A stretch of 64,000 nt of DNA from Amylibacter marinus. Its GTDB lineage: Bacteria > Pseudomonadota > Alphaproteobacteria > Rhodobacterales > Rhodobacteraceae. The notes under the pieces are model-generated. The model searched no databases. It was not told the origin of the DNA and was given only the letters and a program-made list of their open reading frames with translations. The stretch spans positions 1-64,000 of the forward strand of contig NZ_BSNN01000002.1 in NCBI RefSeq assembly GCF_030160015.1, written 5' to 3'. Shown one piece after another: positions 9,326 through 57,203 of the stretch. Position numbers and translations under genes: made by a program. How positions within the stretch are numbered: the first letter of the stretch is position 1; each line of letters starts with the position of its first letter.

Positions 9326-10447
9326 TCATAATGCCTGTATTGTTGGAATATCGCCAAACCCGTTAAATCGGGTTGCGATGGATTGCACATAGGCCCCCAT
9401 GCCTTGAATTATGATGTAATCTCCATCCTTTAAATTAATCGGCAAATCCAAAGGCGCATCCAATTGATCCAATGAATCACAGGTCGGGCCAAACGCCATA
9501 TACCCCTGTTTCGCGCCGCCCTTAGGATGGGCCTGGTCATCCACCACATACATGCGACCACAGATGCCAATATCGCTGAATTCGGCCAATCCACCGTAAA
9601 CGCCGTCATTCAGAAAAATCTGTGAACCATCGCGCGCCTTAACTCGCAAGATCAAATTGCCCGCCTCAGCCACCATCGCCCGGCCCGGTTCGCAAACCAA
9701 CAGCGGAGCTTGATCAAAATTATCTCGCACCGCTTGATAGATGGCGTCAAAATAAACAGATAGATCCACCGGCCCTGTACCGCGATCGCTGGGAAAACCA
9801 CCCCCCACATTTAACCGCGCCAAGGGCACCTGCGCACGCCCCGCAATCTCAGCGCATTTTACTATGTAGCGCTCCCATGCGGTGGGATTTATACACTGGG
9901 TGCCTGGGTGAAAAGTCATGGAGGCCACCATCCCCGCGCCATGCGCCCGACGTAGCAATTGGACACAGGTTTCCGCCTCTGCACCAAACTTGGTGCCAAA
10001 ATCATAGGCCGCCCCTGCCACATCCATATGCAGGCGTACAGAAACCTCGCTGCCCCAGGGTAACACGGCCAATAGTTTTTCCATCTCGCTGAGGCGATCC
10101 ACCGAGAAAGAGCGTACCCCCAGCGCCACGGCTCGCTCGATTTCATCCCTGCTGCGCACGGGGTTGTTGTAATGCAGAATCAGATCTTCACCCATCTGAC
10201 GGATGGTTTCGATTTCGGTAATTGAGGCCACATCAAATGTCTGAATGCCAACATTGATTAACTGGCTTAGAACCATTGGGTCAGGATTGGCCTTCACCGC
10301 ATAGGTGACCAGCCCGGCAAAACCCGCTTGGAAACGCTGTGCGGTTTGGCGTAGGGTTTCGGAATCCATAAATAAATGTGGGCGCTCAGGCTGACAGCGA
10401 CGAATAAACTCTTCGGGGGAATTCCAAACTGTTGGTTGATAACGCAT
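9326..10447 (-). CDS. type III PLP-dependent ornithine/diamino acid decarboxylase
   Basis: The 373-residue enzyme has the alanine-racemase-like fold of group IV decarboxylases: the PLP lysine in VTYAVKANPDP (about residue 52), HPGTQCI, the phosphate-binding GGGFPSDRG, CEPGRAMVAEAG and the C-terminal catalytic Cys in GPTCDSLD. It most likely decarboxylates ornithine to putrescine, with lysine as a possible second substrate. The start was set at the ATG at 10445-10447 (MRYQPTVW). It is divergent from an Lrp/AsnC regulator, which probably controls it from the 110-base gap. Confidence 0.9.
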   Translation of the reverse strand: MRYQPTVWNSPEEFIRRCQPERPHLFMDSETLRQTAQRFQAGFAGLVTYAVKANPDPMVLSQLINVGIQTFDVASITEIETIRQMGEDLILHYNNPVRSRDEIERAVALGVRSFSVDRLSEMEKLLAVLPWGSEVSVRLHMDVAGAAYDFGTKFGAEAETCVQLLRRAHGAGMVASMTFHPGTQCINPTAWERYIVKCAEIAGRAQVPLARLNVGGGFPSDRGTGPVDLSVYFDAIYQAVRDNFDQAPLLVCEPGRAMVAEAGNLILRVKARDGSQIFLNDGVYGGLAEFSDIGICGRMYVVDDQAHPKGGAKQGYMAFGPTCDSLDQLDAPLDLPINLKDGDYIIIQGMGAYVQSIATRFNGFGDIPTIQAL

Positions 10448-10557
10448 GGGGCACCTTTTCTTACCAGAATGCGTGTAAAGATGGGCAAAAGGACTCGTAA
10501 ATTTGTCAAATAGCTGAATAATATGTAGCATTATGACGAAATTTTGGGGAAATTACC

Positions 10558-10983
10558 ATGGATGCCATAGATCACACCATCATTGACGCCCTGCGCCAGA
10601 ATGCCCGCCTGCCTATTTCCAGCCTTGCCGCACAGCTGGGCATGGCACGTACTACCATCCAAACCCGCCTCTCGCGGCTGGAAAGCACCGGCATAATCCA
10701 AGGTTATGCAGTGCGCCTAGGCCCAGAAATCGAGGAGCGCCAAATCAAGGCTACGGTGCTATTGCAGCTAGACCCCAAAGCGGGGGCAGGGGTTGTCGCG
10801 CGTTTGAAGAAGATTCCGAACGTCGAACAGGCCTTTACGGCGTCTGGCCGTTTTGATTTGGTGCTGACGGTGGGGGCCAACTCTACGGGTGCGCTCGATG
10901 AGATATTGGACGAGATCGGGGATATGCAGGGGGTCAAATCATCCGAGAGTCTGATCCAGCTCAGCACCAAAATTGATCGCTAG
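10558..10983 (+). CDS. Lrp/AsnC family transcriptional regulator
   Basis: The 141-residue regulator has an N-terminal winged helix (MDAIDHTIIDALRQNARL; AAQLGMARTTIQTRLSRLE) and a C-terminal RAM/ligand-binding domain (KATVLLQLDPKAG; SGRFDLVLTVGA). The family senses amino acids and usually acts on divergent neighbours, here the ornithine decarboxylase gene. No convincing palindromic operator was resolved by eye in the shared gap. Confidence 0.93.
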   Translation: MDAIDHTIIDALRQNARLPISSLAAQLGMARTTIQTRLSRLESTGIIQGYAVRLGPEIEERQIKATVLLQLDPKAGAGVVARLKKIPNVEQAFTASGRFDLVLTVGANSTGALDEILDEIGDMQGVKSSESLIQLSTKIDR

Positions 10984-11079
10984 CCTCGGCGCATCCACAA
11001 TCCTCCTTTCCCTTGCTCAAAACCCACGCTAAGAAGCACAAAGCGTGATTTCACAGCGGATTATTCACAGGGCAAAACG

Positions 11080-13989
11080 ATGGCGATGGAAAAAAACTTT
11101 GATGCGAGCAAACGCGAGGCTGACATTTGGGAAAAATGGGAAGCGGCGCAGGCCTTCAAGGCAGGTGCAAATGCACGCGATGGTGCCGATAGCTTCTCGA
11201 TCATGATCCCCCCCCCGAATGTGACCGGTGTTTTGCATATGGGGCATGCATTTAACAACACGCTTCAGGATATCCTGATCCGCTGGAAACGTATGCAGGG
11301 CTTTGACACCCTATGGCAACCGGGCACAGATCACGCAGGCATTGCCACCCAGATGGTGGTGGAACGCGAGCTGGCCAAAGAGGGCAAAAAACGCACTGAT
11401 TTCCCGCGCGAAGAGTTTTTAAAGAAAATCTGGGCCTGGAAAGAACAATCCGGCGGCACCATAATCAACCAGCTGAAACGCCTCGGCGCATCCTGTGATT
11501 TTGACCGTACCGCCTTCACCATGTCGGGGGCACAGGGTGATACCCGCGTGGGCCACGAAAACAGCCCCAATTTCCACGATGCCGTCATCAAGGTTTTTGT
11601 TGAAATGTACAACAAAGGCCTGATTTACCGTGGTAAACGCTTGGTCAACTGGGACCCGCATTTTGAAACCGCGATTTCTGATCTAGAGGTGGAAAACATC
11701 GAGGTTGACGGCCACATGTGGCACTTCAAATACCCCCTAGCGGGGGGGCTGGAATATGAATACGTCGAGAAAGACGCGGATGGCACCGTTACGCTTCGCG
11801 AGATGCGCAACTATATCTCTATCGCCACCACACGTCCTGAAACCATGCTGGGGGATGGCGCAGTTGCCGTACATACCAAGGATGCGCGCTATGCCCCGAT
11901 CGTGGGTCAGCTATGTGAAATTCCTGTTGGCCCCAAGGAACAGCGCCGCCTGATCCCGATTATCACCGATGATTACCCCGATCCCGATTTCGGATCCGGT
12001 GCTGTGAAAATCACCGGTGCCCATGATTTCAACGACTATATGGTCGCCAAGCGTAACAATATCCCGATGTACAATCTGATGGATACCCGCGCCAACATGC
12101 GCGCCGATGGCGCCCCATATGTGGAAGAGGCCGCCAAGGCCCAAGCCATCGCCAATGGCACGCTGGAATTCGACGAGGCGATGATCGCCGCCACCAATAT
12201 GGTGCCCGAGGAATACCGCGGTCTCACCCGCGAAGAGGCCCGCGCGCGCGTGATTGCCGATATCACCGCCGAGGGTCTGGCCGTGATGCACGACGTGACC
12301 AAAACCATCAAAGACGAAGAGGGCACCGAGTCTCAAATCACTGAAACCGTGCCATACGTCGAAAACAAACCGATCATGCAACCCTTTGGCGATCGCTCCA
12401 AGGTGGTGATCGAGCCTATGCTGACCGATCAGTGGTTCGTAGAAACCGATAAAATCGTCGGCCCCGCGCTGGACGCCGTGCGTGAGGGTACCGTTAAAAT
12501 CATGCCCGAAAGCGGCGAGAAGGTTTACTACCACTGGCTCGATAATATCGAGCCATGGTGTATTTCTCGCCAGCTATGGTGGGGACACCAGATACCGGTT
12601 TGGTTTGATACAGAGGGCAACCAGTTTTGCGCCGCAACCGAGGCCGAAGCCATCGAGATGTCTGGCGGCAAGTCTCTAACCCGCGACCCAGACGTCCTAG
12701 ACACATGGTTCTCCTCTGGCCTCTGGCCCATCGGCACGCTGGGCTGGCCCGAACAAACCGACGAGCTGGCGCGCTATTTCCCCACCAGCACCCTGATCAC
12801 GGGCCAAGATATCCTGTTCTTCTGGGTTGCCCGCATGATGATGATGCAACTGGCTGTGGTGGATCAAATCCCCTTTGATACCGTGTATTTGCACGGTTTG
12901 GTGCGCGATGCCAAAGGCAAGAAAATGTCGAAATCCACCGGCAATGTCATTGATCCGCTGGATTTGATCGATGAATACGGCGCCGATGCCCTGCGCTTTG
13001 CCAATGCGGCCATGGCATCAATGGGCGGTGTGTTGAAAATGGATACCAAACGCATCGAAGGCTATCGCAATTTCGGCACCAAGCTGTGGAATGCCACGCG
13101 TTTCGCCGAATTCAACGAGGCCGCACCAGTGGCCGATTTCGACCCAAAATCCACAACCCAAACCCTGAACAAATGGATCGTGGGCGAGGTGGCCACACTG
13201 CGTGAAACAGTCGATGCATCGCTAGCTGCTTACCGCTTTAACGACGCGGCCCATGCGCTGTATGGCTTTATCTGGAACAAACTGTGCGATTGGTACGTAG
13301 AATTGTCCAAGCCATTGCTACAAGGCGATGATGCCGCCGCCGTGGCTGAAACCAAGGCAACACTGGCTTGGGTGTTGGATCAATCCTATACAATGCTACA
13401 CCCGATTATGCCGTTTATCACCGAGGAGCTTTGGGCCGAAACAGGGCACACTGACCTGTTGGCACACAAAGATTGGCCCGAATACACCGCGGCTGATCTG
13501 GTCGATGCAGATGCCAATGCAGAGATGAGCTGGGTGATCAATCTAATCGAACAGGTGCGTTCTTTGCGTGCAGAAATGCGCGTCAATGCAGGGGCCAAAA
13601 TCCCGATGGTGCAGTTGGAACTAGACGCAGCGGCCAAAACGGCCCTTGTCAATAACCAATCCATGATCATGCGCCTTGCCCGCATCAGCGAAATCACCAC
13701 GGCCAGTGCCGCCCCCCAAGGCGCGGTTACTATCGCGGTCGAGGGTGGCGAATTCTGTCTGCCTCTGGCCGATATCATCGATATCGATGCAGAAAAGGCC
13801 CGTTTGACCAAGGCGATTGAAAAACTGAACAAAGAGCTGGGCGGGATCAAAGGCAAGCTGTCGAACGAAAAATTCGTCAATAACGCCCCAGAATCCGTGG
13901 TTGCGGAAAACCGTGCGCGTATCGAAACAGGATCAGAAGAGCTGGAAACCCTCACCGCTGCATTACAGCGCGTTGAATCCTTGGGATAA
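11080..13989 (+). CDS. valS: valyl-tRNA synthetase
   Basis: The class I synthetase charges tRNA-Val and edits misacylated threonine. The 969-residue protein carries [16 protein letters not shown] with the HIGH-type motif HMGH (about residue 55), the [13 protein letters not shown] region, the editing CP1 domain ([16 protein letters not shown]), KKMSKSTGN (about residue 614), an anticodon-binding domain and a C-terminal coiled coil ([18 protein letters not shown]). The start at ATG 11080 follows a GC-rich gap without a strong Shine-Dalgarno; an ATG two codons later is possible. Long open frames on the opposite strand inside it are shadows. Confidence 0.97.
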
Positions 13990-47028: not shown

Positions 47029-48063
47029 ATGAAAAAATCTGTTCGATATATTCTAAACGGGTTATTCTTGCCTGTGTTCGTTGTGAACCAGAAGAAGAAT
47101 ATCAGCTTTATGAACAAGGCCGCACGGGCGCGCTATGTGGATGCGCAAACTGGACAAGAGTTCAAAGAGGTTATTTCATCTAAAAAATGCCGCAAGGCGC
47201 TGAAAAAGGTTTTAGAGGGGGCGCCAAACGAGACGGTGACCATCACCTTACAAGAGGTGGTGCCAACCTCGTTTCGCGTATCTCTTTCGCGTTTGGATGA
47301 TGAGCGCGGCGGCGCACCCAGCTGTGTGCTCAGCTTTGAGGATATTTCGCATATTCAAGAGGCCGAGCAGATGCGTCATGATTTTGTGGCCAATGTCAGT
47401 CACGAGTTGCGCTCGCCTCTAACGGCCATTTCGGGCTTCATCGAGACGCTACAAACGGCGGCGCAGGGCGATGCTGTGGCCACCAAACGGTTCCTAGATC
47501 TAATGGACCTAGAGGCGGGCCGTATGGCGCGTCTGATCGCAGATTTGCTGTCCTTGTCTAAATTGCAATCCAGCGAACGTGTGGCCCCAACACAAGCGAT
47601 AGATGTTCAAAAGGTTTTGGCTCAGGTCACGTCATCTCTGTCTGGATTGGCCGAGCAAAACAAAGTGAACATTGAGCACAATCTATGCAACAACATTCCA
47701 TTGGTTCTTGGGGATGGCGATGAGTTGACGCAGGTTTTCCAGAATTTAATCGAAAATGCGGTGAAATATTCACATCAGGGCACGTCGGTGGCGATCGATT
47801 TCTGCCCAGAGAATGCCCCGCATTCGCATGTGTGTATTTGCATTCGCGACCACGGCGATGGCATCGAGCCTGCGCATATTCCGCGCCTGACCGAGCGGTT
47901 TTACCGCATCGATAAGGGGCGCTCGCGCTCGCAGGGGGGCACGGGGTTAGGGCTGGCAATTGTAAAGCATATTTTGATCCGCCACCGTGGCTGGATGAAG
48001 ATCACATCAGAGGTAGGCGAGGGCAGTGTATTTTCTGTATACCTGCCCATCGCCGAGCATTAG
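47029..48063 (+). CDS. PhoR-like sensor histidine kinase
   Basis: The 344-residue kinase has a PAS-like N-terminus (PVFVVNQKKNISFMNKAAR), the H-box FVANVSHELRSPLTAISGF and the N, G1, F and G2 ATP-binding motifs (NLIENAVKYS; RDHGDGIEPAHIPRLTERFYR; GGTGLGLAIV). It has no membrane segments. In Rhodobacterales PhoR is usually followed by pst-phoU-phoB; here the convergent CoA-transferase follows and no response regulator is visible. The sensed signal is unknown. Confidence 0.85.
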   Translation: MKKSVRYILNGLFLPVFVVNQKKNISFMNKAARARYVDAQTGQEFKEVISSKKCRKALKKVLEGAPNETVTITLQEVVPTSFRVSLSRLDDERGGAPSCVLSFEDISHIQEAEQMRHDFVANVSHELRSPLTAISGFIETLQTAAQGDAVATKRFLDLMDLEAGRMARLIADLLSLSKLQSSERVAPTQAIDVQKVLAQVTSSLSGLAEQNKVNIEHNLCNNIPLVLGDGDELTQVFQNLIENAVKYSHQGTSVAIDFCPENAPHSHVCICIRDHGDGIEPAHIPRLTERFYRIDKGRSRSQGGTGLGLAIVKHILIRHRGWMKITSEVGEGSVFSVYLPIAEH

Positions 48064-49997
48064 GCTTGATCTTGGTCTCGAATATAGGCCGCTGCCTCTT
48101 TGGCAGTTTCGAAAATATGCGGCTGTAATTTTCGTGCTTTTAGGTCTTGACCCATTTTCTGGCGTAGGAAGGCCGATGTGGTATATCGTGCGGCCTTTAG
48201 GAAGTACTGGGTCTCTAGCTCTGCTTGGAAATCCGCATAGAGCCCACGCAATTTGGGCGCGATCACGCGGCCATCAAAGTTGGAAATGATATTAACCTTC
48301 TTCCCCAGATCACCGAAGAAGCGATGCATGACCGTATAGTGCTCGTCCAGATCAGCCTTGGTGTTGATCGAGGTGCCGGCCAGATTGATGAAAACAGTAT
48401 TTGTTGTCTCGTCATAGGTTAGGCGATCTTCCATTTTAACATTGATTAGGCTGTTGCGCAGCTTCATCGGTTTGTCTGCAAAAAGTGCAGGGTCCATGAT
48501 CTTGGGCGAATTAATAATTGGCCTAAAGGCCATGTGGGCCAGAATATCGCGTTCGATATCGATACCTGGGGCGACTTCGGCTAATTCCAGACCGGCCTCG
48601 GTGAGGCGCAATACGCATCGCTCTGTGATATATAGAACCTCTTGGCCCTGTTGGGCTGCATATTCGCCGTTGAAAGTGACCTGTTCGACCTCTGGGATGA
48701 ACTTCTGCATCGTGCCTTCTTGGGTAATCTGCATTGTGCCATCAGGGCATTCTATACGCAGGCCACGGGCCGTGAATGTGCCAACAAATATTAGCTTTCG
48801 GGCGTTCTGGCTGATGTTGATAAACCCGCCAGCACCGGCAAAGCGATCCTTAAACCTGCTGACATTTACATTGCCCTTGGCATCGACTTCGGCCATGCCC
48901 AGACAGGCCAAGTCCAGCCCGCCGCCATCATAAAAATCAAACATTTGATTGGTTTGGGTGACGGAATTAGCATTGATCGCCGCGCCAAAATCCAGGCCAG
49001 ATTGCGGCACCCCTCCCAGAACGCCTGCCTCTGTTGTGAGGGTGATGTGATCCAGTATCTCTTCTTCGTTGGCCACGGCACCCACACCCTCTGGCATGCC
49101 AATGCCTAGGTTTACGACACCGTTAATCGGCAACTCCATGGCCGCACGGCGCGCAATAATTTTGCGATCAGAAAAGGGCATGGGGGGCAGCTCGTCCACC
49201 ACACCTTTGAGGCGGCCAGTGAAGGCATGATTATAGGTGGTGTCATAGGTTTGCATGTGTTCAGAGGGATCCGCGACCACCACACAATCAACAAAATTGC
49301 CGGCAACGACCACTTCGCGCGGGTTCATCGAGCCTTCTGCGGCCAGACGTTCGACCTGCGCAATCACCAAGCCACCAGAGTTTTTGGCTGCCTGAGCGAT
49401 AGAGAGCATATCCAGTGTCAGGGCCTCGCGTTCCATGGTGATATTGCCGTATTTATCCGCGGTGGTGCCACGAATAAAGGCTACATCGATTGGGATCGAG
49501 CGATAGAACAGCCACTCTTCACCGTCCAGATCCTTTAGCTCTACCAGCTTTTCTGTGGATAGTTCATTGATCGCCCCACCAATGTGGCGCGGATCGACAA
49601 ATGTGTTTAGGCCCACCTTTGAAAACATACCCGGTTTGCCACCGGCGATCTCTCGGTACAGCTGTGAAATACAGCCCAACGGCAGGTTATAGGCGGCGAT
49701 CCTATTCTCTACCGCCATTTTCCCAAGGCGCGGCACCAAAGACCAGTGGCCGCCGATGGCACGTTTCACTAGCCCATCCTGCGCCAAGCGATTCAGGCCT
49801 GCATCTTTGCCATCGCCCGGCGCTGCGGCAAACAACAGCGATAGATCGCGCGGCTCTGCCTGATCTCGATAGCGATCGGCCAGCCCGCGCACCAACGCCT
49901 CGGGCGTGCCAATACCCACAAACCCAGAGACACAAACCGTGTCCCCATCTTTGATGACTGCGACTGCATCTTCCAGTGATACGACCTTGTCGACCAT
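48060..49997 (-). CDS. acyl-CoA:acetate/3-ketoacid-type CoA-transferase with C-terminal extension
   Basis: The N-terminal ~515 residues form a fused alpha/beta family I CoA-transferase like propionate CoA-transferase, with the catalytic Glu in TLTTEAGVLGG and the glycine-rich GFVGIGTPEALV. About 130 residues follow the usual end, starting NSLINVKMEDRLTYDETTNT, a small alpha/beta domain of a kind reported in some long forms. It is the last gene of the PHA operon, 17 bases after phaC. It probably activates a hydroxy acid or short-chain acid to its CoA thioester. Confidence 0.85.
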   Translation of the reverse strand: MVDKVVSLEDAVAVIKDGDTVCVSGFVGIGTPEALVRGLADRYRDQAEPRDLSLLFAAAPGDGKDAGLNRLAQDGLVKRAIGGHWSLVPRLGKMAVENRIAAYNLPLGCISQLYREIAGGKPGMFSKVGLNTFVDPRHIGGAINELSTEKLVELKDLDGEEWLFYRSIPIDVAFIRGTTADKYGNITMEREALTLDMLSIAQAAKNSGGLVIAQVERLAAEGSMNPREVVVAGNFVDCVVVADPSEHMQTYDTTYNHAFTGRLKGVVDELPPMPFSDRKIIARRAAMELPINGVVNLGIGMPEGVGAVANEEEILDHITLTTEAGVLGGVPQSGLDFGAAINANSVTQTNQMFDFYDGGGLDLACLGMAEVDAKGNVNVSRFKDRFAGAGGFINISQNARKLIFVGTFTARGLRIECPDGTMQITQEGTMQKFIPEVEQVTFNGEYAAQQGQEVLYITERCVLRLTEAGLELAEVAPGIDIERDILAHMAFRPIINSPKIMDPALFADKPMKLRNSLINVKMEDRLTYDETTNTVFINLAGTSINTKADLDEHYTVMHRFFGDLGKKVNIISNFDGRVIAPKLRGLYADFQAELETQYFLKAARYTTSAFLRQKMGQDLKARKLQPHIFETAKEAAAYIRDQDQA

Positions 49998-50014
49998 AGT
50001 AGCCTCCCTTTTGT

Positions 50015-51142
50015 CTAAACTTGGGTTTTCTTGATCCAGTCGATCAAGCCACCCGCAACCACGCCTTGGGCTTTGCGGCTGACGAAGACGCCAACATGCC
50101 CACCGGGGAAGCCGATTTCGGTATATTTCTTTGGTGAAATGTAATTGCTCAGGGGTTTCGTACAGCTGATTGGTACGATGTGATCCTGTAGCGCGTAGAT
50201 ATTCATCACGGGGCAGTCGATATGCGATAGGTTCACCGCCTGACCGTCGACGCTGAACTCGCCCTTTACCAGCTTGTTTTCCCGATAGAAATCATTGAAC
50301 CATTGCTTGGCGGCAGCACCGGGATGATCTGGGCGATCTGCGATCCATTTTTCCATACGCAGGAAATTCAATGTGGCATCCCTGTCGCCCTGTAGCCGTT
50401 GCAGACCGAGGTTATATTTGGTCATGGAATTCATCGGTGTCAGGGCCGAGAACATCACGCCAGACATCTCGCCGGGCATATTGCCGTGGACGTCGATCAT
50501 GTTGTCGATCTCTTCTTTCGACATATTCGATAGCCACTGGTTCAAAAAACCCTCGCCGCGCCAGAAATTTTCTGGATCACCTTTGAAGTCGATGGGGGTG
50601 ATGGCAAGCGCAAGACCTTTGAACAGGTCGGGTGCAAGGGCGGCTAGGCAGGTGGATAATGTGCCCCCCTCGCAGATACCAAACATGGTGATCGGCTTGC
50701 CATCATTATAATCCACCAAATACTCAACACAGTCGCGCAGATATATATCGATCATGTCTTCGATGGTGGTGAATTGATCGGCGCGCGTCGGGTTGCCCCA
50801 ATCCAGCACATGTACATCAATGCCCGCCTCCAGCAGGTTACGCACCAAAGAGCGATCCTGTTGCAGATCGATCATGGTTTGACGGCCAAACAGCCCATAG
50901 GCGATAAGCACTGGTGGTGCGCCTTTTAGGGGCTTGGCCAATGGGCGATAGCGGCTGACGGTGACCTTATCGATCTGAAATACCACATCAGATGGGGTGG
51001 TGGCTATTTGCACATCAGTGTCAGAAATTGCGTTCAGCATTTCGGATGATTTTAGTGTGTTAACACCAGCGTCCATCAATTGACCCATGGCGGTATTATA
51101 GGCCTGTGAGAAATTATCAGGCGTCTGCTTTGGGGTGGTCAT
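50015..51142 (-). CDS. phaC: class III polyhydroxyalkanoate synthase, PhaC subunit
   Basis: The 375-residue enzyme polymerises hydroxyacyl-CoA. It has the PHA-synthase lipase box GICEGG with catalytic Cys157, and the Asp and His of the triad in YALQDHIVP and GFPGGHVGVFVS. The length fits class III (class I enzymes are about 600 residues). It overlaps phaE by four bases (ATGA), as expected for a stoichiometric complex. Confidence 0.93.
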   Translation of the reverse strand: MTTPKQTPDNFSQAYNTAMGQLMDAGVNTLKSSEMLNAISDTDVQIATTPSDVVFQIDKVTVSRYRPLAKPLKGAPPVLIAYGLFGRQTMIDLQQDRSLVRNLLEAGIDVHVLDWGNPTRADQFTTIEDMIDIYLRDCVEYLVDYNDGKPITMFGICEGGTLSTCLAALAPDLFKGLALAITPIDFKGDPENFWRGEGFLNQWLSNMSKEEIDNMIDVHGNMPGEMSGVMFSALTPMNSMTKYNLGLQRLQGDRDATLNFLRMEKWIADRPDHPGAAAKQWFNDFYRENKLVKGEFSVDGQAVNLSHIDCPVMNIYALQDHIVPISCTKPLSNYISPKKYTEIGFPGGHVGVFVSRKAQGVVAGGLIDWIKKTQV

Positions 51143-51912
51143 TTCTGTGCGGCCCTTAGATCTTTTTTCAGTTTGCGCAACTCGCGTTTCAGCTTGTGCA
51201 CAGTTTCGGTCAGATCATCGATTTCTGTGCGTGTTGGCATCTGCAATTTTTCTCCCCAAGCTTCGGCCATTTTGGCCTGACGTTTTGTCAAGTTGCTAGA
51301 GGCTTGAATAAGGCCGCGTTGTGCAGCCATGAATTCTGTGGATGATTGGGTGTCCAGCAGCTCTTCATTTGCAGTTTTTACCCAGGCATTAAGGGCTTCG
51401 GTTACGTTGCCTGCCTTTAAATCATCGACGCTGAAGTGTTTGGAATAGGTGGCATAGGCGCGCGACCATGCCTCTTGCATTACCTTGCCAAATGCACTGC
51501 TGGCCTCTTGGAAATCAATCATCTCCTGCCATTGATCTGCGGCGCCAATTTGTGGGTAGGTCAGATCAGCCAGTTGGGGCATATTGGCAACGGATTCAAG
51601 GATAGAGCGTAGCTGTTCAGGCGCCTGTGTCATCCATGTGCTCGGATCAAACAAGGCAAAATAGGCGTCCTTTTGTTTGTCAAAGTTGGATTGTACGCTA
51701 GAGGCCATCATCGCACTTGGATCCCATCCAGGGGCCCAAGCGCGCACGAAGTTTTGCCAATTTTCAACGCCTTGACTGATCGGGTCTTTGGGTTTGGGTG
51801 CGAAGGCGCGGCCGAAATTTTCGGCCATTTCGCGCTGAGCATCGAAAAAGCTGTCTTGGCCTTGCTTCCAAAACTGCATCATTGCATCCATTCCATCGTT
51901 TTTATCAGCCAT
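51139..51912 (-). CDS. phaE: class III PHA synthase, PhaE subunit
   Basis: The 257-residue protein is helical and Trp-rich (FWKQGQDSFFDAQREMAENFG; NFVRAWAPGWDPS) and ends in a coiled coil with basic tail (HKLKRELRKLKKDLRAAQK), the layout of PhaE. PhaE stabilises PhaC and granules. It lies directly upstream of phaC with a four-base overlap. Confidence 0.88.
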   Translation of the reverse strand: MADKNDGMDAMMQFWKQGQDSFFDAQREMAENFGRAFAPKPKDPISQGVENWQNFVRAWAPGWDPSAMMASSVQSNFDKQKDAYFALFDPSTWMTQAPEQLRSILESVANMPQLADLTYPQIGAADQWQEMIDFQEASSAFGKVMQEAWSRAYATYSKHFSVDDLKAGNVTEALNAWVKTANEELLDTQSSTEFMAAQRGLIQASSNLTKRQAKMAEAWGEKLQMPTRTEIDDLTETVHKLKRELRKLKKDLRAAQK

Positions 51913-51923
51913 TGCGTTTTCTC

Positions 51924-53090
51924 CTAGAGTGCTGCGGTGTAAATTGCCAAGGCGTCGTCATAGGTGACTTCGCGCGGGTTATTTACCAGCAGACGTGATT
52001 GTTTCATGGCGTCCTCGGCCAAGCGCGGCAGGTCATTGTGGCTAACACCCACCTCTTTAAGTGTGGATTTCATACCCAGCTCCGGGCCCAGATCCTTGAA
52101 GCCCTGAACCATACCTGCACAGATTTCTGCATTTGATTTACCCGCCAGTTCTGGGAAGATAATCGGGGCTATCTCTGCATATTGCGATGCACCCAATTCA
52201 TCGGCCATGTTGAATTCCAGAACATGGGGTAGAACCAGCGCATTTGACAGACCATGCGGTACATGGAAATGGCCGCCCAGAGGATAGGCCAGCGCATGTA
52301 CCGCAGCCACAGGTGCGTTGGCAAATGACATGCCAGCCAGCATTGAGCCGAGCAACATATCAGAGCGCGCGGCGCGGTCTTCACCATCGCTACAGGCGGT
52401 CCGGATTGCCCCGCCCAGCAATTCCAGCGCTTGGCGCGCTAAGGTATCGGATAGAATGTTCTTGGCGTGTTTGGTGGTATAGGCCTCGATGGCGTGAACC
52501 ATGGCATCAATACCGGTGGCGGCAGTTACATGCGCGGGCAGACCAACCGTCAGCTCTGCGTCCAGTACAGCCCAGTCAGGCAATAAGGTGGGCGAAACCA
52601 CGCCTTTTTTCTCGGATGTGCGGGTGGTGACGATGGAAATCGGGGTCACCTCGGATCCTGTGCCAGCCGTTGTGGGGGCCAGCACCAGCGGCAGACGCCC
52701 GCCTTTCAGCATGCCCACGCCGTACATCTCGTCTAGGTCTTGGGCCACGTTATCCTGTGCCAGCACAGCGATCAGCTTGGCGGTATCCAAAGATGATCCT
52801 CCGCCGACAGAAACGACTCCATCGATGCCTTCTTTTTTAGCCTCTTCAACAGCGGCGCGGATCATGGCCTCTGGGGGATCTGCGACCACGTCGTCGATCA
52901 CGTGTACATCAATGCCAGCATCTTTCAGGCCTTTTAGCGTAGCATCCGCAAGGCCCAGTTTTAGGATCATGGCATCGGTGACGAAGGCTACCTTTTTACA
53001 GCCCAAATCTTGCATCAGACCGCCGATTTTTTCGGTAGAGCCGACCTCAGACAAAATAGAGGCTGTGGTTTGGAATTTAAACGGTTTCAT
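51924..53090 (-). CDS. iron-containing alcohol dehydrogenase
   Basis: The 388-residue enzyme has the type III ADH motifs: NAD loop VVSVGGGSSLDTAK, PTTAGTGSEVTPI, and metal ligands in GIDAMVHAIEAYTT and HALAYPLGGHFHVPHG. Family members reduce aldehydes such as succinate semialdehyde to 4-hydroxybutyrate, or lactaldehyde. Eleven bases separate it from phaE, so it is in the PHA operon. The actual substrate is unknown; the context suggests an aldehyde feeding a hydroxyacyl-CoA. Confidence 0.92.
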   Translation of the reverse strand: MKPFKFQTTASILSEVGSTEKIGGLMQDLGCKKVAFVTDAMILKLGLADATLKGLKDAGIDVHVIDDVVADPPEAMIRAAVEEAKKEGIDGVVSVGGGSSLDTAKLIAVLAQDNVAQDLDEMYGVGMLKGGRLPLVLAPTTAGTGSEVTPISIVTTRTSEKKGVVSPTLLPDWAVLDAELTVGLPAHVTAATGIDAMVHAIEAYTTKHAKNILSDTLARQALELLGGAIRTACSDGEDRAARSDMLLGSMLAGMSFANAPVAAVHALAYPLGGHFHVPHGLSNALVLPHVLEFNMADELGASQYAEIAPIIFPELAGKSNAEICAGMVQGFKDLGPELGMKSTLKEVGVSHNDLPRLAEDAMKQSRLLVNNPREVTYDDALAIYTAAL

Positions 53091-53100
53091 AATTGTGATC

Positions 53101-54756
53101 CTATTTGTTCAGAGGAGAGGAGAGCGTTTTTAGACGCGCAGTCAATTTCATGTTTTCAGAATAATCAACGGGACAATCGATGATCGATACGGTGCCATCA
53201 TTCATGGCAGTGTTCAAAATGTCTTGCAATTCTTCAGTTTTTTCAACGCGGTAACCCTTACCACCGAAGCTTTCTGCGAATTTCACGAAATCAGGGTTGG
53301 TCACATCGATATGAGAGCTGCGGCCAAATTCGCGCAACTGATGCCACTCGATCAACCCGTATTTGTTATCGTTGAAAATGATGATGGTGATGTTCAAACC
53401 TAGGCGTAGAGCGGTTTCGATTTCTTGGTTGTTCATCATAAAGCCGCTGTCGCCGCAAACGGCTACGATATTGCGCTCTGGGTAGATCAGCTTGGCGGCG
53501 ATTGCACCGGGAAGGGCGATGCCCATGGATGCGAAGCCGTTTGAGATGATGCAGGTATTTGGACGTTCGGCCTGATACATGCGGGCCATCCACATTTTAT
53601 GTGCACCTACATCGGAAATCACGATATCCTCTGGGTCGAGCGCGGCGCGCAGATCGCAGATGATTTTTTGTGGTTTCACAGGAAAGTGGTTGTCGTCAGC
53701 ATGCGCATTCAATTCTTCCGAAATGCTGTCGTGCAGATCGGCGACTTTGTTATCCAGATGCTTTTCGGCGCGCTGTGCCAGACGGGCAAGGCTGTCTTTG
53801 ATATCGCCGACCATGCCGATTTCTGGGATGAAATGGGTGTCTACCTCGGCGGCGGATGCATCGATGCTGATGATGCGCACATCCGCATTTGGGTTCCAGA
53901 AGCTGGGAGTATATTCAACCATGTCTAGGCCGATACAGATAACCAAATCGCTTTCTTCGATACCGAAGGCGACCAGATCGTGGGCCTTTAGGCCTACGGT
54001 GCCAATGGAGAGAGGATGTGATGAGGGTAGGGCGCCCTTGGCCATAAAGCTGGTGGCGACTGGGGCATTGGTAGCCTCGGCAAAGGCGCGTAATTCATCG
54101 CATGCATCGAAACGGATCACGCCATTACCGGCGATGATTACGGGGTTTTTTGCATTCTCAAGTGCGCTCAGGACGCGTTCGGCGCTGCCGGTTGGGGCCA
54201 CGGGGAACTGGGGGGCCTGTACTTTTAGGGGTTCGATATACTCATGTTTGGTATCGGCAACATTTTCAGGGAAGTCGATGAAGGAGGCGCCTGGTTTTTC
54301 TGCCTGAGCAAATTTGAACGCCTTGCGGATTACTTCGGGCACAATTTCTGTTTCGCGAATTTGCACAGAATATTTGGTGATAGGATCGAATAGGTTAACC
54401 AAATCTAGGATTTGGTGGCTTTCTTTGTGCAGGCGTGTTGTGGCGCCCTGGCCAGCGATGGCAACGATTGGTGCGCGATCCATATTGGCGTCAGCAACGC
54501 CGGTAACTAGGTTTGTAGCCCCTGGCCCTAACGTAGACATACATACACCTGCGCGTCCTGTCAGGCGGCCATAGACATCGGCCATGAATGCGGCGCCCTG
54601 TTCGTGGCGTGTGGTGATGAATTGAATCGTGCTGTCTAGCAGTGCGTCCATAACCGCGATATTTTCTTCGCCTGGGATGCCGAAAATGTATTCAACCCCT
54701 TCGTGTTCGAGGCATTTTACCATTTGCGCGGCTGACGATAGTTGCGTTCCTGACAT
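53101..54756 (-). CDS. acetolactate-synthase-like thiamine-diphosphate enzyme
   Basis: The 551-residue protein has the ThDP catalytic Glu52 in RHEQGAAFMADVYGR, FGIPGEENIAVMDAL, HKESHQILDLVNLFDPITK and the ThDP-binding GDSGFMMNNQEIETALR to NDNKYGLIEW. It is most similar to catabolic acetolactate synthase (AlsS), but ThDP-dependent decarboxylases share this fold. No small regulatory subunit or butanediol gene is near. It heads the five-gene PHA operon, ten bases before the dehydrogenase. Confidence 0.87.
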   Translation of the reverse strand: MSGTQLSSAAQMVKCLEHEGVEYIFGIPGEENIAVMDALLDSTIQFITTRHEQGAAFMADVYGRLTGRAGVCMSTLGPGATNLVTGVADANMDRAPIVAIAGQGATTRLHKESHQILDLVNLFDPITKYSVQIRETEIVPEVIRKAFKFAQAEKPGASFIDFPENVADTKHEYIEPLKVQAPQFPVAPTGSAERVLSALENAKNPVIIAGNGVIRFDACDELRAFAEATNAPVATSFMAKGALPSSHPLSIGTVGLKAHDLVAFGIEESDLVICIGLDMVEYTPSFWNPNADVRIISIDASAAEVDTHFIPEIGMVGDIKDSLARLAQRAEKHLDNKVADLHDSISEELNAHADDNHFPVKPQKIICDLRAALDPEDIVISDVGAHKMWMARMYQAERPNTCIISNGFASMGIALPGAIAAKLIYPERNIVAVCGDSGFMMNNQEIETALRLGLNITIIIFNDNKYGLIEWHQLREFGRSSHIDVTNPDFVKFAESFGGKGYRVEKTEELQDILNTAMNDGTVSIIDCPVDYSENMKLTARLKTLSSPLNK

Positions 54757-55083
54757 ATCTCTTCCCTTTTATGCAGCTGTTGTTTCTAGCTTAGTGTTAA
54801 CCTTAGGTTGCGGTCTAGCCATTATTTCCCGTTGCGTCAGCTAGCAGTTTTTGCATAGCCGTTAACCGTTACAAACAAGGCAAAAGTTAACACTTTATTA
54901 ATAAGAGGTGGAAAACAATAAGGCGGTTATTGTGCGCCGCACAATAAATTGCTGCGATGCACAAGATTTATGTTGCAATGCACAAAACCATCTGATACGC
55001 ATCGGTTATCGGGCCAGTTTCGACCCGAAGGAAGATTAGGCCCGGCAACCTCCTGTTGGGTAAACTGGTAAAGGAATGATCAC
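54757..55083. other. divergent promoter region of the PHA operon and phasin gene
   Basis: No gene is seen in these 327 bases. It carries the TGCACAA-type elements listed separately. The phasin ATG is preceded by AAAGGAA. Confidence 0.5.
54927..54985. promoter_or_regulatory. PhaR-type operator cluster upstream of phasin
   Basis: An inverted repeat with arms TTATTGTGC and GCACAATAA around GCC (54927-54947) is followed by two TGCACAA direct repeats at 54958-54964 and 54979-54985, 21 bases apart, each inside a TTGC...TGCACAA context. PhaR regulators bind TGC-rich sequences in phasin promoters. This is the most probable PhaR target for both the phasin gene and the divergent als-adh-phaEC operon. 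Confidence 0.6.
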
Positions 55084-55515
55084 ATGACCAAAGCAAACAA
55101 AGCGACCGAAAAAATGACTGCTGCTGCAACTGAAGCAACCGCTAAGGTGGCCGCAGCAACCGAAGTATCCCTGGAAAAATCTCAAGAGTTTTTCGCTAAA
55201 TCAACCAAGGCTTCTGAAAAGCTTGTTGAAGGTGTTATTGAATATAACGCATCTGCATTTAAAGGTGCCGAAGTTGTAGCGAAAAAAGCCTATGACAACT
55301 ATGTAGCCAACACTACAACCGCATACGAAGATGCAAAGGCATTGGCCAAAACATCTGATGTTGCTGGTTTCTACAAATTGGCTCAGGCCAACTTCTCTAA
55401 AGCTGCTGAGGCCTATACAGCCCAAGCTAAAGATTTGGCTGAACTGTCTCAAAAAGTCTTGGCAGATAACACTACTGTTGCCAAAAAATTGTACAAAGAA
55501 ACATTCGCTGGATAA
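55084..55515 (+). CDS. phasin
   Basis: The 143-residue protein is Ala/Lys/Glu-rich and helical, with the phasin-type core (ASEKLVEGVIEYNASAFKGAE; VAGFYKLAQANFSKAAEAYT). Phasins coat PHA granules. It is the first rightward gene after the operator cluster and has a strong terminator. The phaR gene follows. Confidence 0.88.
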   Translation: MTKANKATEKMTAAATEATAKVAAATEVSLEKSQEFFAKSTKASEKLVEGVIEYNASAFKGAEVVAKKAYDNYVANTTTAYEDAKALAKTSDVAGFYKLAQANFSKAAEAYTAQAKDLAELSQKVLADNTTVAKKLYKETFAG

Positions 55516-55534
55516 AACCAGATAATTGTTTTTC

Positions 55535-55566
55535 AAAGCCGCCTTGCAACCACAGGGCGGCTTTTT
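55535..55566 (+). terminator. Rho-independent terminator after phasin
   Basis: AAAGCCGCC and GGCGGCTTT pair around a 12-base loop and are followed by five T residues. Confidence 0.8.
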
Positions 55567-55594
55567 GCATTTCTAATACGAATTAGCCCGCATA

Positions 55595-55652
55595 TGCACA
55601 AAAAGAGGGGTTCACACGCGCAGACTAACAGCTATTATGACGCAGTGCACAA
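55595..55652 (+). promoter_or_regulatory. TGCACAA elements in the phaR promoter
   Basis: TGCACAA occurs at 55595-55601 and again at 55646-55652, 51 bases apart, in the short gap before phaR. The same heptamer lies in the phasin upstream cluster, which suggests PhaR autoregulation. Confidence 0.5.
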
Positions 55653-55664
55653 AGGGGCGGCGAT

Positions 55665-56285
55665 ATGTCTGAGGATCAAAAAGTGGCTGATGAGCCAGAA
55701 AAGGCCAGCGCTGACCAGCGGGTGGTGATTAAGAAATACGCCAATCGTCGCCTGTATAATACCAGCGCAAGCAAATACATCGTGTTACAGGATGTTATCG
55801 AATTGGTAAACGCAGGTCGGGAGTTCGTGATCGAAGACGCCAAAAGCGGCGAAGACATCACTCGCAGCATCCTGAACCAGATCATATTCGAACAAGAAAC
55901 TCAGCCCCAGGAATTCTTGTTTCCCCTAGAATTCCAAAAACAACTCATCCGATTATATGGCGATAGCTATGGACATTTGGTGCCCGATTTCTTGACCAAG
56001 TCGATAAACTTCTTTGCCTCGGAGCGCAAAGAAATGACTGATGCGTGGCAATCAATGATGGCTCGCAATACCGATACATTTCTAAAGCAATCAGAGGCCA
56101 TGGCACGCCAGAACATGGAGGCGTTTCGCCGGACATGGGATGTGTTTGGGGTAATGGGAAAAAATTCTGAAAAACCAGATGCAGGACAAGATGCGCCCAG
56201 TACAGATGTCGATCAAAGTGAGGCATTGAAAAAACTGCAAGCCGAGGTATCCGCTATGCAAGAAAAATTAAAAGAATTGAAGTAA
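55665..56285 (+). CDS. phaR: polyhydroxyalkanoate synthesis repressor PhaR
   Basis: The 206-residue protein has the signature N-terminal DNA-binding domain VIKKYANRRLYNTSASKYI, the granule-binding core and a C-terminal coiled coil (LKKLQAEVSAMQEKLKELK). PhaR represses phasin and itself until it is titrated by nascent PHA granules. It is followed by the hydrolase gene within 12 bases. Confidence 0.94.
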   Translation: MSEDQKVADEPEKASADQRVVIKKYANRRLYNTSASKYIVLQDVIELVNAGREFVIEDAKSGEDITRSILNQIIFEQETQPQEFLFPLEFQKQLIRLYGDSYGHLVPDFLTKSINFFASERKEMTDAWQSMMARNTDTFLKQSEAMARQNMEAFRRTWDVFGVMGKNSEKPDAGQDAPSTDVDQSEALKKLQAEVSAMQEKLKELK

Positions 56286-56297
56286 GATCGTGCAATC

Positions 56298-57203
56298 ATG
56301 CTGACAAAACCAGATGGAAAAGTAACCGCACAACCGGGAATGAAATTTAGCCACAATTATGTCCGCGGGCTAAGTTTTCAGGGGTTTCATCGTATTCATT
56401 ATACGGATTGGAACAATCGCCCCGATATTCAGGATCAGGATACGCTGGTCTGTGTGCATGGGGTGTCACGTAACGGGCGTGATTTTGACTATTTGGCCGA
56501 GCGGATGATGGATCAATACCGCGTGGTCTGCCCCGATATGGTTGGTCGCGGCGAAAGCGACCATCTGCTGACCCATAAGGGATACGATTATTTACAGTAT
56601 AATGCGGATATGAATGCCGTTTTGGCTCGTTTGGATGTGGGTAAGGTCGACTGGGTTGGCACATCGATGGGAGGGATTATCGGCATGGTCTTTGCCTCTC
56701 TACCGCAATCACCGATCAAAAAGTTGGTTTTGGTCGACGTCGGCCCTGAAATATCGCGCGACAGCCTGTTGAAAATTGGCGAATACATTGGTCTAGCGGG
56801 AGAGTTTAAGACGCGCGAGGCGTTAAAGGAGTATATGCGCGAGATCTACAAAGATTTTTATCCGCTTAGCGAAGACGATCTAGATCATATGTTTGAGCAT
56901 GCCGCTGTGCGTACCAAGCAAGGCAAGTTCAAGTTGCGCATGGATCCAGCGATTGGCGATGCCTTTCGCGAGGATATTTCTCTTTTTGATGTTGATATGT
57001 GGGAAACTTGGGACAATATCAGCTGTCCTGTCCTGATCGTTCGGGGCAAGGAGTCGCAGTTTTTCTCACAGGAAACTGCTAAAGAGATGTTGACCAGAGG
57101 GCCAGAGACAACCCTCATTGAGATGGAGCACGCGGGTCATACCCCGACACTGCGCAATGACGAGCAGGTTGACCCCATCCGCAAATGGCTGTTGGAAAAT
57201 TAG
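56298..57203 (+). CDS. alpha/beta hydrolase
   Basis: The 301-residue enzyme has the nucleophile elbow WVGTSMGGIIG, the oxyanion strand CVHGVSRNGRDFD and the catalytic His in HAGHTPTLRN. It directly follows phaR and may act on hydroxyacyl oligomers or esters, but this family has many substrates. No signal peptide is present. Confidence 0.85.
   Translation: MLTKPDGKVTAQPGMKFSHNYVRGLSFQGFHRIHYTDWNNRPDIQDQDTLVCVHGVSRNGRDFDYLAERMMDQYRVVCPDMVGRGESDHLLTHKGYDYLQYNADMNAVLARLDVGKVDWVGTSMGGIIGMVFASLPQSPIKKLVLVDVGPEISRDSLLKIGEYIGLAGEFKTREALKEYMREIYKDFYPLSEDDLDHMFEHAAVRTKQGKFKLRMDPAIGDAFREDISLFDVDMWETWDNISCPVLIVRGKESQFFSQETAKEMLTRGPETTLIEMEHAGHTPTLRNDEQVDPIRKWLLEN

Follow-up and report, generated by a model that had tools for sequence, protein, structure and literature searches.

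A conserved operon of Amylibacter marinus predicted to direct the synthesis of a 4-hydroxybutyrate-containing polyhydroxyalkanoate

The gene cluster and the encoded enzymes

The window analysed here comprises 64,000 nucleotides of Amylibacter marinus (contig NZ_BSNN01000002.1, positions 1 to 64,000) and contains a run of five minus-strand genes at 48060-54756, which combines a two-subunit polyhydroxyalkanoate (PHA) synthase with a thiamine diphosphate (ThDP)-dependent enzyme, an iron-dependent alcohol dehydrogenase (Fe-ADH) and a CoA-transferase (Table 1). The five leftward genes, the coordinates and the gaps given by an earlier sequence-only reading were reproduced exactly. The spacings are 10, 11, -4 and 17 bases in the order from the ThDP gene to the CoA-transferase gene, and a purine-rich stretch lies upstream of every one of the five starts. 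The unit reaches further than this reading had placed it, as genes for a phasin, PhaR and a hydrolase lie at 55084-57203 on the plus strand. We consider it likely that the operon serves specifically to synthesise a PHA that contains 4-hydroxybutyrate (4HB). What the sequences show is gene content, conservation, catalytic residues, co-location and co-occurrence, from which we infer every substrate, the polymer and the direction in which the pathway runs.

Table 1. Features of the operon and of the adjoining divergent genes
Feature	Position	Strand	Basis
2-Oxo acid decarboxylase (ThDP-dependent), predicted to act on 2-oxoglutarate, 551 aa	53101..54756	-	PRK08322, invariant E/H/K, neighbours of homologues
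Fe-ADH, predicted to reduce succinic semialdehyde (4-hydroxybutyrate dehydrogenase), 388 aa	51924..53090	-	PF00465 + PF25137
PhaE-like subunit of class III-like PHA synthase, 257 aa	51139..51912	-	PF09712
PhaC catalytic subunit of class III-like PHA synthase, 375 aa	50015..51142	-	TIGR01836 best NCBIfam model, C/D/H triad
Propionate/YdiF-type CoA-transferase, predicted 4-hydroxybutyrate activation, 645 aa	48060..49997	-	PF01144, YdiF match
Divergent intergenic region between operon and phasin gene, 327 bases	54757..55083	.	computed gap
Phasin, granule surface protein, 143 aa	55084..55515	+	PF09361, 37.4 bits (cut-off 24.9)
Terminator-like hairpin 3' of the phasin gene	55535-55564
PhaR, PHA synthesis repressor	55665..56285	+	TIGR01848, 123.2 bits (cut-off 109.45)
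Alpha/beta hydrolase, may depolymerise PHA or cleave oligomers	56298..57203	+	PF00561

The sequence-only reading had called the synthase a class III PhaE-PhaC pair. PhaE matched PF09712 (PHA_synth_III_E) with 56.3 bits (cut-off 25.7), and phaE and phaC are separate, adjacent genes that overlap by 4 bases. PhaC belongs to Pfam Abhydrolase_1 and carries C157, D320 and H349, which were located by motif and are invariant in 30/30 sequences; the class III triad of Chromatium vinosum is C149, D302 and H331, and 4HB is listed among the substrates of class I, III and IV synthases (PMC6403647). The best NCBIfam model for PhaC was that of the class III enzyme, TIGR01836, with 314.1 bits, below the cut-off of 365.3, and PhaE reached 56.4 bits with TIGR01834, below the cut-off of 154.95. 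Since both of these cut-offs were missed, the synthase is labelled class III-like, a divergent branch.

The Fe-ADH reached none of the cut-offs of the 17 NCBIfam models listed, and all scores were far below. Residues D195, H199, H265 and H279 are invariant in 32/32 sequences and follow the Asp, His, His, His ligand pattern of the group III metal-dependent alcohol dehydrogenases; we take them to be the metal ligands, as in Fe-ADH structures. A function as 4-hydroxybutyrate dehydrogenase is predicted from the gene context.

The CoA-transferase matched PF01144 with 117.7 bits and has its catalytic Glu, E323, in 29/29 sequences. Its best PDB match was YdiF (2ahu) by sequence (451 bits) and by fold, YdiF being first in the fold search with a predicted structure of mean pLDDT (predicted local distance difference test) 61.9. 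The nearest NCBIfam equivalog, FadX, was matched below its cut-off (415 vs 750). Past the YdiF-matching part the protein continues for about 125 aa (residues 520-645) as an extra C-terminal domain, for which the model shows strands alternating with helices at good confidence; no Pfam family matched this extension and the fold search gave no name for it. CoA-transferases of the Pct type are listed as producers of 4HB-CoA (PMC9676036).

Distribution of the operon and of other PHA genes

A scan of 84,980 species genomes with the ThDP protein gave 362 relatives, of which the best 80 were used. Together with nine stretches from relatives, and after removal before counting of four duplicates (L025, L027, L028 and L029, whose contigs are identical to L033, L034, L035 and L041), this resulted in 85 distinct loci with a ThDP homologue. 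The complete five-gene order was observed in 29 of them, in one case (L049) with the CoA-transferase truncated by the contig end. Three loci were partial: L036 and L060, both at contig ends, and L055 of Labrenzia alba. In the other 53 the Fe-ADH was absent beside the ThDP gene. The conserved order rules out a chance cluster, which the sequence-only reading had named as a refutation and for which it had proposed such a neighbourhood search. The carriers are found in Amylibacter, Ahrensia, many metagenome-assembled genomes (MAGs) of Rhizobiaceae, Pacificoceanicola, Ruegeria lacuscaerulensis, a Rhodospirillales MAG, a Pseudomonadales MAG and Leucothrix arctica, and the complete loci range over several alphaproteobacterial groups and two gammaproteobacteria. 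The nearest named relative among the best 80 of 362 was Amylibacter ulvae with 88% identity of the ThDP protein. In Labrenzia alba (9648-12659) the ThDP and Fe-ADH genes are retained, followed by a PhaE remnant, and beyond it no PhaC or CoA-transferase was found.

The divergent phasin-PhaR-hydrolase set, here termed the type 1 layout, adjoins the operon in 22/29 complete loci. Leucothrix (L070) has all three genes, with the orientation of the phasin gene reversed. Four complete loci (L053, L056, L057 and L062) have a type 2 layout with the hydrolase downstream on the operon strand, and two loci at contig ends show none of the three genes (L030) or the phasin alone (L049). In R. lacuscaerulensis (L056) a PhaC_N match (G080 C65:5149-5511) crosses one TAG, and the 367-aa PhaC frame is open there. 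Within the genus of the window, the ThDP gene was present at an identity of at least 79% in 9/33 genomes and the full operon in eight of these nine; the ninth, G019, has a ThDP fragment only, at a contig end. When the Fe-ADH was used as query (E <= 1e-150) against a sample of 385 alphaproteobacterial genomes, five genomes had a match, the window among them. Two of these have additional complete operons including phasin, PhaR and hydrolase; in two large genomes the matches (64% identity) sit outside any such operon.

PhaB is absent from the operon, and the genome of the window has no match over the TIGR01829 cut-off (best 257.8 vs 302.1). It also has no PhaC_N match and no class I PhaC. Among the 33 genomes of the genus, PhaB was found over the cut-off in 0/9 carriers and in 12/24 non-carriers (p 0.012); with the 22 best genomes the numbers were 0/7 and 8/15 (p 0.022). 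Two of the nine carriers are 65% and 81% complete. Ten of the non-carriers have a strong class I PhaC. An additional PhaC frame of 574 aa is open in the carriers G014 (C1:453351) and G020 (C7:247401), and second PhaC frames of 574-588 aa in G014, G020, G067, G068, G069 and G078 reach 192-208 bits with PhaC_N, below the usual class I values. Outside the genus, 24 of the 25 Fe-ADH loci were searched (L060 was omitted; L036 and L055 are partial). PhaB was over the cut-off in 4/24 carriers (L053, L055, L056 and L057), among them three of the four genomes with a complete type 2 locus, and an additional PhaC occurred in 8/24, the same four and L043, L044, L045 and L054.

These data bear on the proposal that the polymer is ordinary 3-hydroxybutyrate (3HB), with the ThDP enzyme, Fe-ADH and CoA-transferase forming a co-transcribed redox or tricarboxylic acid (TCA) cycle bypass that has no part in making the monomer. 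The polymer for which class III synthases are best known is that of 3HB (PMC13042732), and the four carriers with both PhaB and class I PhaC do not have the operon as their sole PHA system. FabG-level reductases are present in 32/33 genomes of the genus (E <= 1e-60), carriers included, and FabG or PhaJ might provide 3HB-CoA, although we regard a supply of 3HB as unlikely. Against 3HB stand the lack of PhaB over the cut-off in the nine carriers of the genus and the five-gene order, which is kept across families and closely spaced in the window. Moreover, a bypass would be needless since the genome of the window encodes a normal SucA, as do 28/33 genomes of the genus over the cut-off. We regard plain 3HB, a further refutation named in the sequence-only reading, as the least probable of the alternatives, with the reductases leaving some room for it. 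The presence of SucA also ruled out a replacement of 2-oxoglutarate dehydrogenase of the cyanobacterial type for the genome of the window.

The ThDP enzyme and its neighbours

The ThDP enzyme consists of the Pfam domains TPP_enzyme N, M and C and matched PRK08322 with 769 bits (cut-off 509), a model whose cut-off is passed in 2/14 control genomes. The NCBI name of this family is 'acetolactate synthase large subunit'. The AlsS model PRK08617 was narrowly passed (525 vs 510), TIGR02418 was not reached (489 vs 551), and the best PDB matches are solved acetolactate synthases (394 bits). Lactaldehyde reductase is among the best-scoring models of the Fe-ADH. All this would suit a catabolic acetolactate synthase next to a lactaldehyde or diol dehydrogenase, with monomers derived from lactate, acetoin or glycolate. 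However, every listed Fe-ADH model stays far under its cut-off. Residues E52, H386 and K387 are invariant in 86/86 aligned ThDP sequences, whereas 4rjj and 1ozf, which we take to be the Bacillus and Klebsiella synthases, carry H-A and F-H at the H386-K387 position. The GabD genes described below would be left unexplained, and a separate IlvB (778.5 bits) is encoded in the genome. We hold the acetolactate route to be very unlikely. The separate IlvB also led us to reject a housekeeping acetolactate synthase as unlikely, so that the caveat of the sequence-only reading, that the enzyme makes acetolactate only, is unlikely to apply in this sense. As the catalytic residues are invariant in PhaC, the CoA-transferase, the Fe-ADH and the ThDP enzyme, these look like working enzymes under selection and not like decayed genes.

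The gene context was then examined for the 2-oxo acid. A gene for a GabD-type semialdehyde dehydrogenase was present in the fetched flanks of 12/32 Fe-ADH loci, in five placements, and of 1/53 others (L031). The Fisher test gave p 1.7e-5, uncorrected for kinship and for the flank length of 505,761 vs 695,682 bases. In eight relatives (L036, L037, L038, L040, L042, L044, L058 and L070) GabD follows the hydrolase on the same strand, and in L026 it is convergent with the hydrolase at a distance of 37 bases. It follows the CoA-transferase in L039 and the downstream hydrolase in L056, and precedes the ThDP gene in L060. Five of the 12 proteins were scored with TIGR01780 of succinic semialdehyde dehydrogenase (SSADH; cut-off 646.35). 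Those of L037 (702.7), L039 (717.5), L060 (677.4) and L026 (genome G022, 679.3) passed, and that of L070 was 0.65 bits short with 645.7.

An aldehyde dehydrogenase gene lies a few genes away in 31 of the 53 loci without Fe-ADH, in 29 of them directly downstream on the same strand. A glutamate-synthase-clustering (GltB-like) protein is encoded nearby in 18, and the two of these 18 that were scanned matched PF01645 with 298 and 290 bits. On plasmids, the sole homologue with more than 60% identity in the collection was that of Leisingera sp. S132 (67.8%), whose cluster (L116, 3703-17156) comprises a TRAP (tripartite ATP-independent periplasmic) transporter, a cupin, an aldehyde dehydrogenase, the ThDP enzyme, a glyoxalase, a short-chain dehydrogenase/reductase and a YdiJ-like gene. 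The one match of the YdiJ-like protein at E <= 1e-60 was the D-2-hydroxyglutarate dehydrogenase YdiJ, an enzyme that would produce 2-oxoglutarate, and the cluster looks like a pathway of D-2-hydroxyglutarate catabolism via succinic semialdehyde. The gene of a Haloarcula plasmid homologue (46%) shares 4 bases with its neighbour, which carries the annotation SSADH, and in Dinoroseobacter the match of a homologue (40.5%) is in contact with gdhA, annotated as encoding glutamate dehydrogenase. Taken together, the gene context favours 2-oxoglutarate as the substrate of the ThDP enzyme.

The pairing of the ThDP gene with the glutamate-synthase-clustering gene was seen in L071 (11175-12686), L081 (4270-5790) and 16 other loci, mostly of gammaproteobacterial MAGs and also of Planctomycetota (L097 and L099). 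Such loci, in which the gene often lies behind that of an unassigned aldehyde dehydrogenase, are possibly an unrecognised 2-oxoglutarate bypass.

The pocket was compared with that of the cyanobacterial decarboxylase MaKGD, which is strictly specific for 2-oxoglutarate (PMC10418658), by published residue numbers only, which were shifted by two near residue 50 and by one past residue 380 so as to fit. In this placement the named residues E50, V382, A384, H385, K386, A408, M410, G434, D435, G437, D462, Y465, L467 and Y531 are identical in the window enzyme and G436 is a Ser. In MaKGD, E50 binds ThDP and H385 and K386 form a His-Lys pair in the pocket; by motif and offset, their counterparts are E52, H386 and K387.

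Several points weigh against 2-oxoglutarate and 4HB. In docking, Lys471 forms a salt bridge and Gln254 a hydrogen bond to 2-oxoglutarate (PMC10418658). Lys471 corresponds to His472 in the window enzyme, and Gln254, provided that the GLQ motif is where it belongs, probably to Lys257; with these residues at the docked contact positions the substrate may have shifted. The tie to the cyanobacterial OgdA consists of offset-fitted published residue numbers and gene context. No GabD gene is found beside the operon of the window itself; the SSADH gene of this genome is on another contig (C4, 689.5 bits), and SSADH is over the cut-off in 30/33 genomes of the genus, in carriers and non-carriers alike. 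Neither an aldehyde dehydrogenase nor a GltB-like gene was seen in 17 of the 53 loci without Fe-ADH, and the three aldehyde dehydrogenases scanned from beside gammaproteobacterial or planctomycete homologues score far below the SSADH cut-off. The Leisingera YdiJ-like protein misses its cut-off (1055 vs 1350 bits), as does the haloarchaeal annotated SSADH with its best model PRK09406 (610 vs 730 bits). The Fe-ADH did not reach the cut-off of the 4-hydroxybutyrate dehydrogenase model NF058672 (229.3 vs 500).

At the Lys471 position, the 53 relatives without Fe-ADH have His in 43 and Lys in 10 cases. Position 257, which by yeast acetohydroxyacid synthase numbering presumably lies in the substrate channel, is Lys in 27/27 type 1 and 3/6 type 2 enzymes and Gln in 48/53 relatives without Fe-ADH. 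Lys257 may be a tuning of the pocket or a sign of another dicarboxylic substrate. In the latter case the same architecture would convert 2-oxoadipate via glutarate semialdehyde to 5-hydroxyvalerate, or oxaloacetate via malonate semialdehyde to 3-hydroxypropionate. The Lys/Gln difference hints at an altered pocket for the distal carboxylate, and enzymes of the GabD family can oxidise glutarate semialdehyde too. Since the neighbours of the relatives (glutamate-synthase-like and YdiJ-like genes and genes annotated as SSADH) speak for 2-oxoglutarate and succinic semialdehyde, we regard another dicarboxylic acid as unlikely.

A quick tree was computed with 66/90 ThDP rows, where every second locus without Fe-ADH was omitted and some were retained deliberately. 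The ThDP enzymes linked to Fe-ADH and PHA genes (30 full and 3 partial), L059 and the Leisingera plasmid protein form one set of 35 with an SH-aLRT (Shimodaira-Hasegawa-like approximate likelihood ratio test) support of 96. The set is nested within the family that has aldehyde dehydrogenase or GltB-like neighbours, although the root is unsure because the outgroup branches are very long. Three label changes suffice on the tree, compared to 22 in shuffles. The Leisingera enzyme, with its 2-oxoglutarate-like context, thus falls inside the PHA set. The enzyme of the gammaproteobacterium Leucothrix groups with the alphaproteobacterial type 1 set with a support of 100, its placement being in an open fork, and two other gammaproteobacterial rows, L060 and L062, fall between type 2 rows of alphaproteobacteria. 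These placements suggest horizontal transfer.

The proposed pathway and the flanking genes

In the proposed pathway, the ThDP enzyme would decarboxylate 2-oxoglutarate to succinic semialdehyde and CO2, and the Fe-ADH would reduce the semialdehyde with NAD(P)H to 4HB. The CoA-transferase would then transfer CoA to 4HB from a donor such as acetyl-CoA, and PhaE-PhaC would polymerise 4HB-CoA on granules, which would be coated by the divergently encoded phasin under repression by PhaR. The return to succinate would use the alpha/beta hydrolase and, in many relatives, the neighbouring GabD. The sequence-only reading had put forward the sequence from succinic semialdehyde via 4HB and its CoA ester to a class III polymer as the obvious candidate; the GabD and the 2-oxoglutarate-related neighbours and the lack of PhaB in the nine carriers favour it. 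Decarboxylation is practically irreversible, and a catabolic reading in which 4HB is used would therefore not require the ThDP gene; with SucA present and IlvB separate, the remaining sense would be the synthesis of 4HB-CoA and polymer. As 2-oxoglutarate rises under nitrogen shortage, the route could be a direct overflow of the TCA cycle into a storage polymer. The polymer in the species of the window is probably a 4HB homopolymer or rich in 4HB. A wider proposal is put forward tentatively, and we lean slightly against it: that the operon is the sole PHA system of the lineage, making poly(4-hydroxybutyrate) (P4HB) homopolymer directly from 2-oxoglutarate and acting as a valve for carbon and redox in nitrogen shortage, and constitutes a second natural PHA cycle, replacing that of acetyl-CoA and 3HB, which spread horizontally among marine alpha- and gammaproteobacteria.

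No natural operon of this kind was found described in the open-access literature, to which the search was confined (subscription papers and preprints lay outside its scope). This agrees with the sequence-only reading, which knew of no such composition; the gene organisation is new relative to the literature searched, and each enzyme type is already known. The closest likeness is an engineered Synechococcus sp. PCC 7002 with OgdA, 4-hydroxybutyrate dehydrogenase, 4HB-CoA transferase and also a class III PhaEC (PMC7147479, PMC8659255). It converts 2-oxoglutarate to a PHA with 4HB units by the four steps proposed here but is artificial, with genes of multiple organisms plus PhaA/PhaB, whereas here one natural conserved operon has neither PhaA nor PhaB. 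The cyanobacterial OgdA-SsaD bypass likewise uses a ThDP decarboxylase (PMC5160925, PMC10418658), and succinic semialdehyde is the expected product here too; the bypass oxidises it to succinate in place of 2-oxoglutarate dehydrogenase, whereas here, with SucA present, reduction and polymerisation are expected. In the SucD-4HbD-OrfZ pathway of Clostridium kluyveri (PMC8659255) a 4HB dehydrogenase and a CoA-transferase lead to 4HB-CoA as proposed here, but it begins at succinyl-CoA and has no polymer end product, and the operon encodes a CoA-transferase of the YdiF/propionate type. The phaABC and phaABEC operons share with the cluster a PHA synthase with phasin and PhaR, and in the class III case PhaE-PhaC; their monomer is made by thiolase and acetoacetyl-CoA reductase, here replaced by the decarboxylase, Fe-ADH and CoA-transferase. 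According to one review, wild-type strains depend on structurally related precursors to form 3HB/4HB copolymers (PMC7147479). The few exceptions named in a second include Hydrogenophaga pseudoflava, whose pathway is said to merit investigation, and a report on Bacillus cereus (PMC8659255).

P4HB is a biodegradable plastic that has so far been obtained mainly by precursor feeding or genetic engineering. If the proposed pathway is correct, named strains such as Amylibacter ulvae, Ahrensia sp. R2A130 and Leucothrix arctica would contain a natural, self-contained operon for 4HB-PHA, with evolved, matched enzymes for a medical polymer approved by the FDA (Food and Drug Administration) from ordinary carbon, and a storage route fed by the 2-oxoglutarate of the TCA cycle. 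Whether P4HB occurs naturally would thereby become directly testable.

Both divergent promoters are likely located in the 327 bases that separate the operon from the phasin gene; a promoter scan of 54757..55083 found no sigma-70-like site. The hydrolase gene starts 12 bases after phaR, and its product matched the model of the intracellular short-chain-length PHA depolymerase weakly (67 bits, cut-off 300). At the other end of the operon, the CoA-transferase gene is convergent with a histidine-kinase-like gene (47029-48063), and the ends of the two genes overlap by 4 bases (48060-48063).

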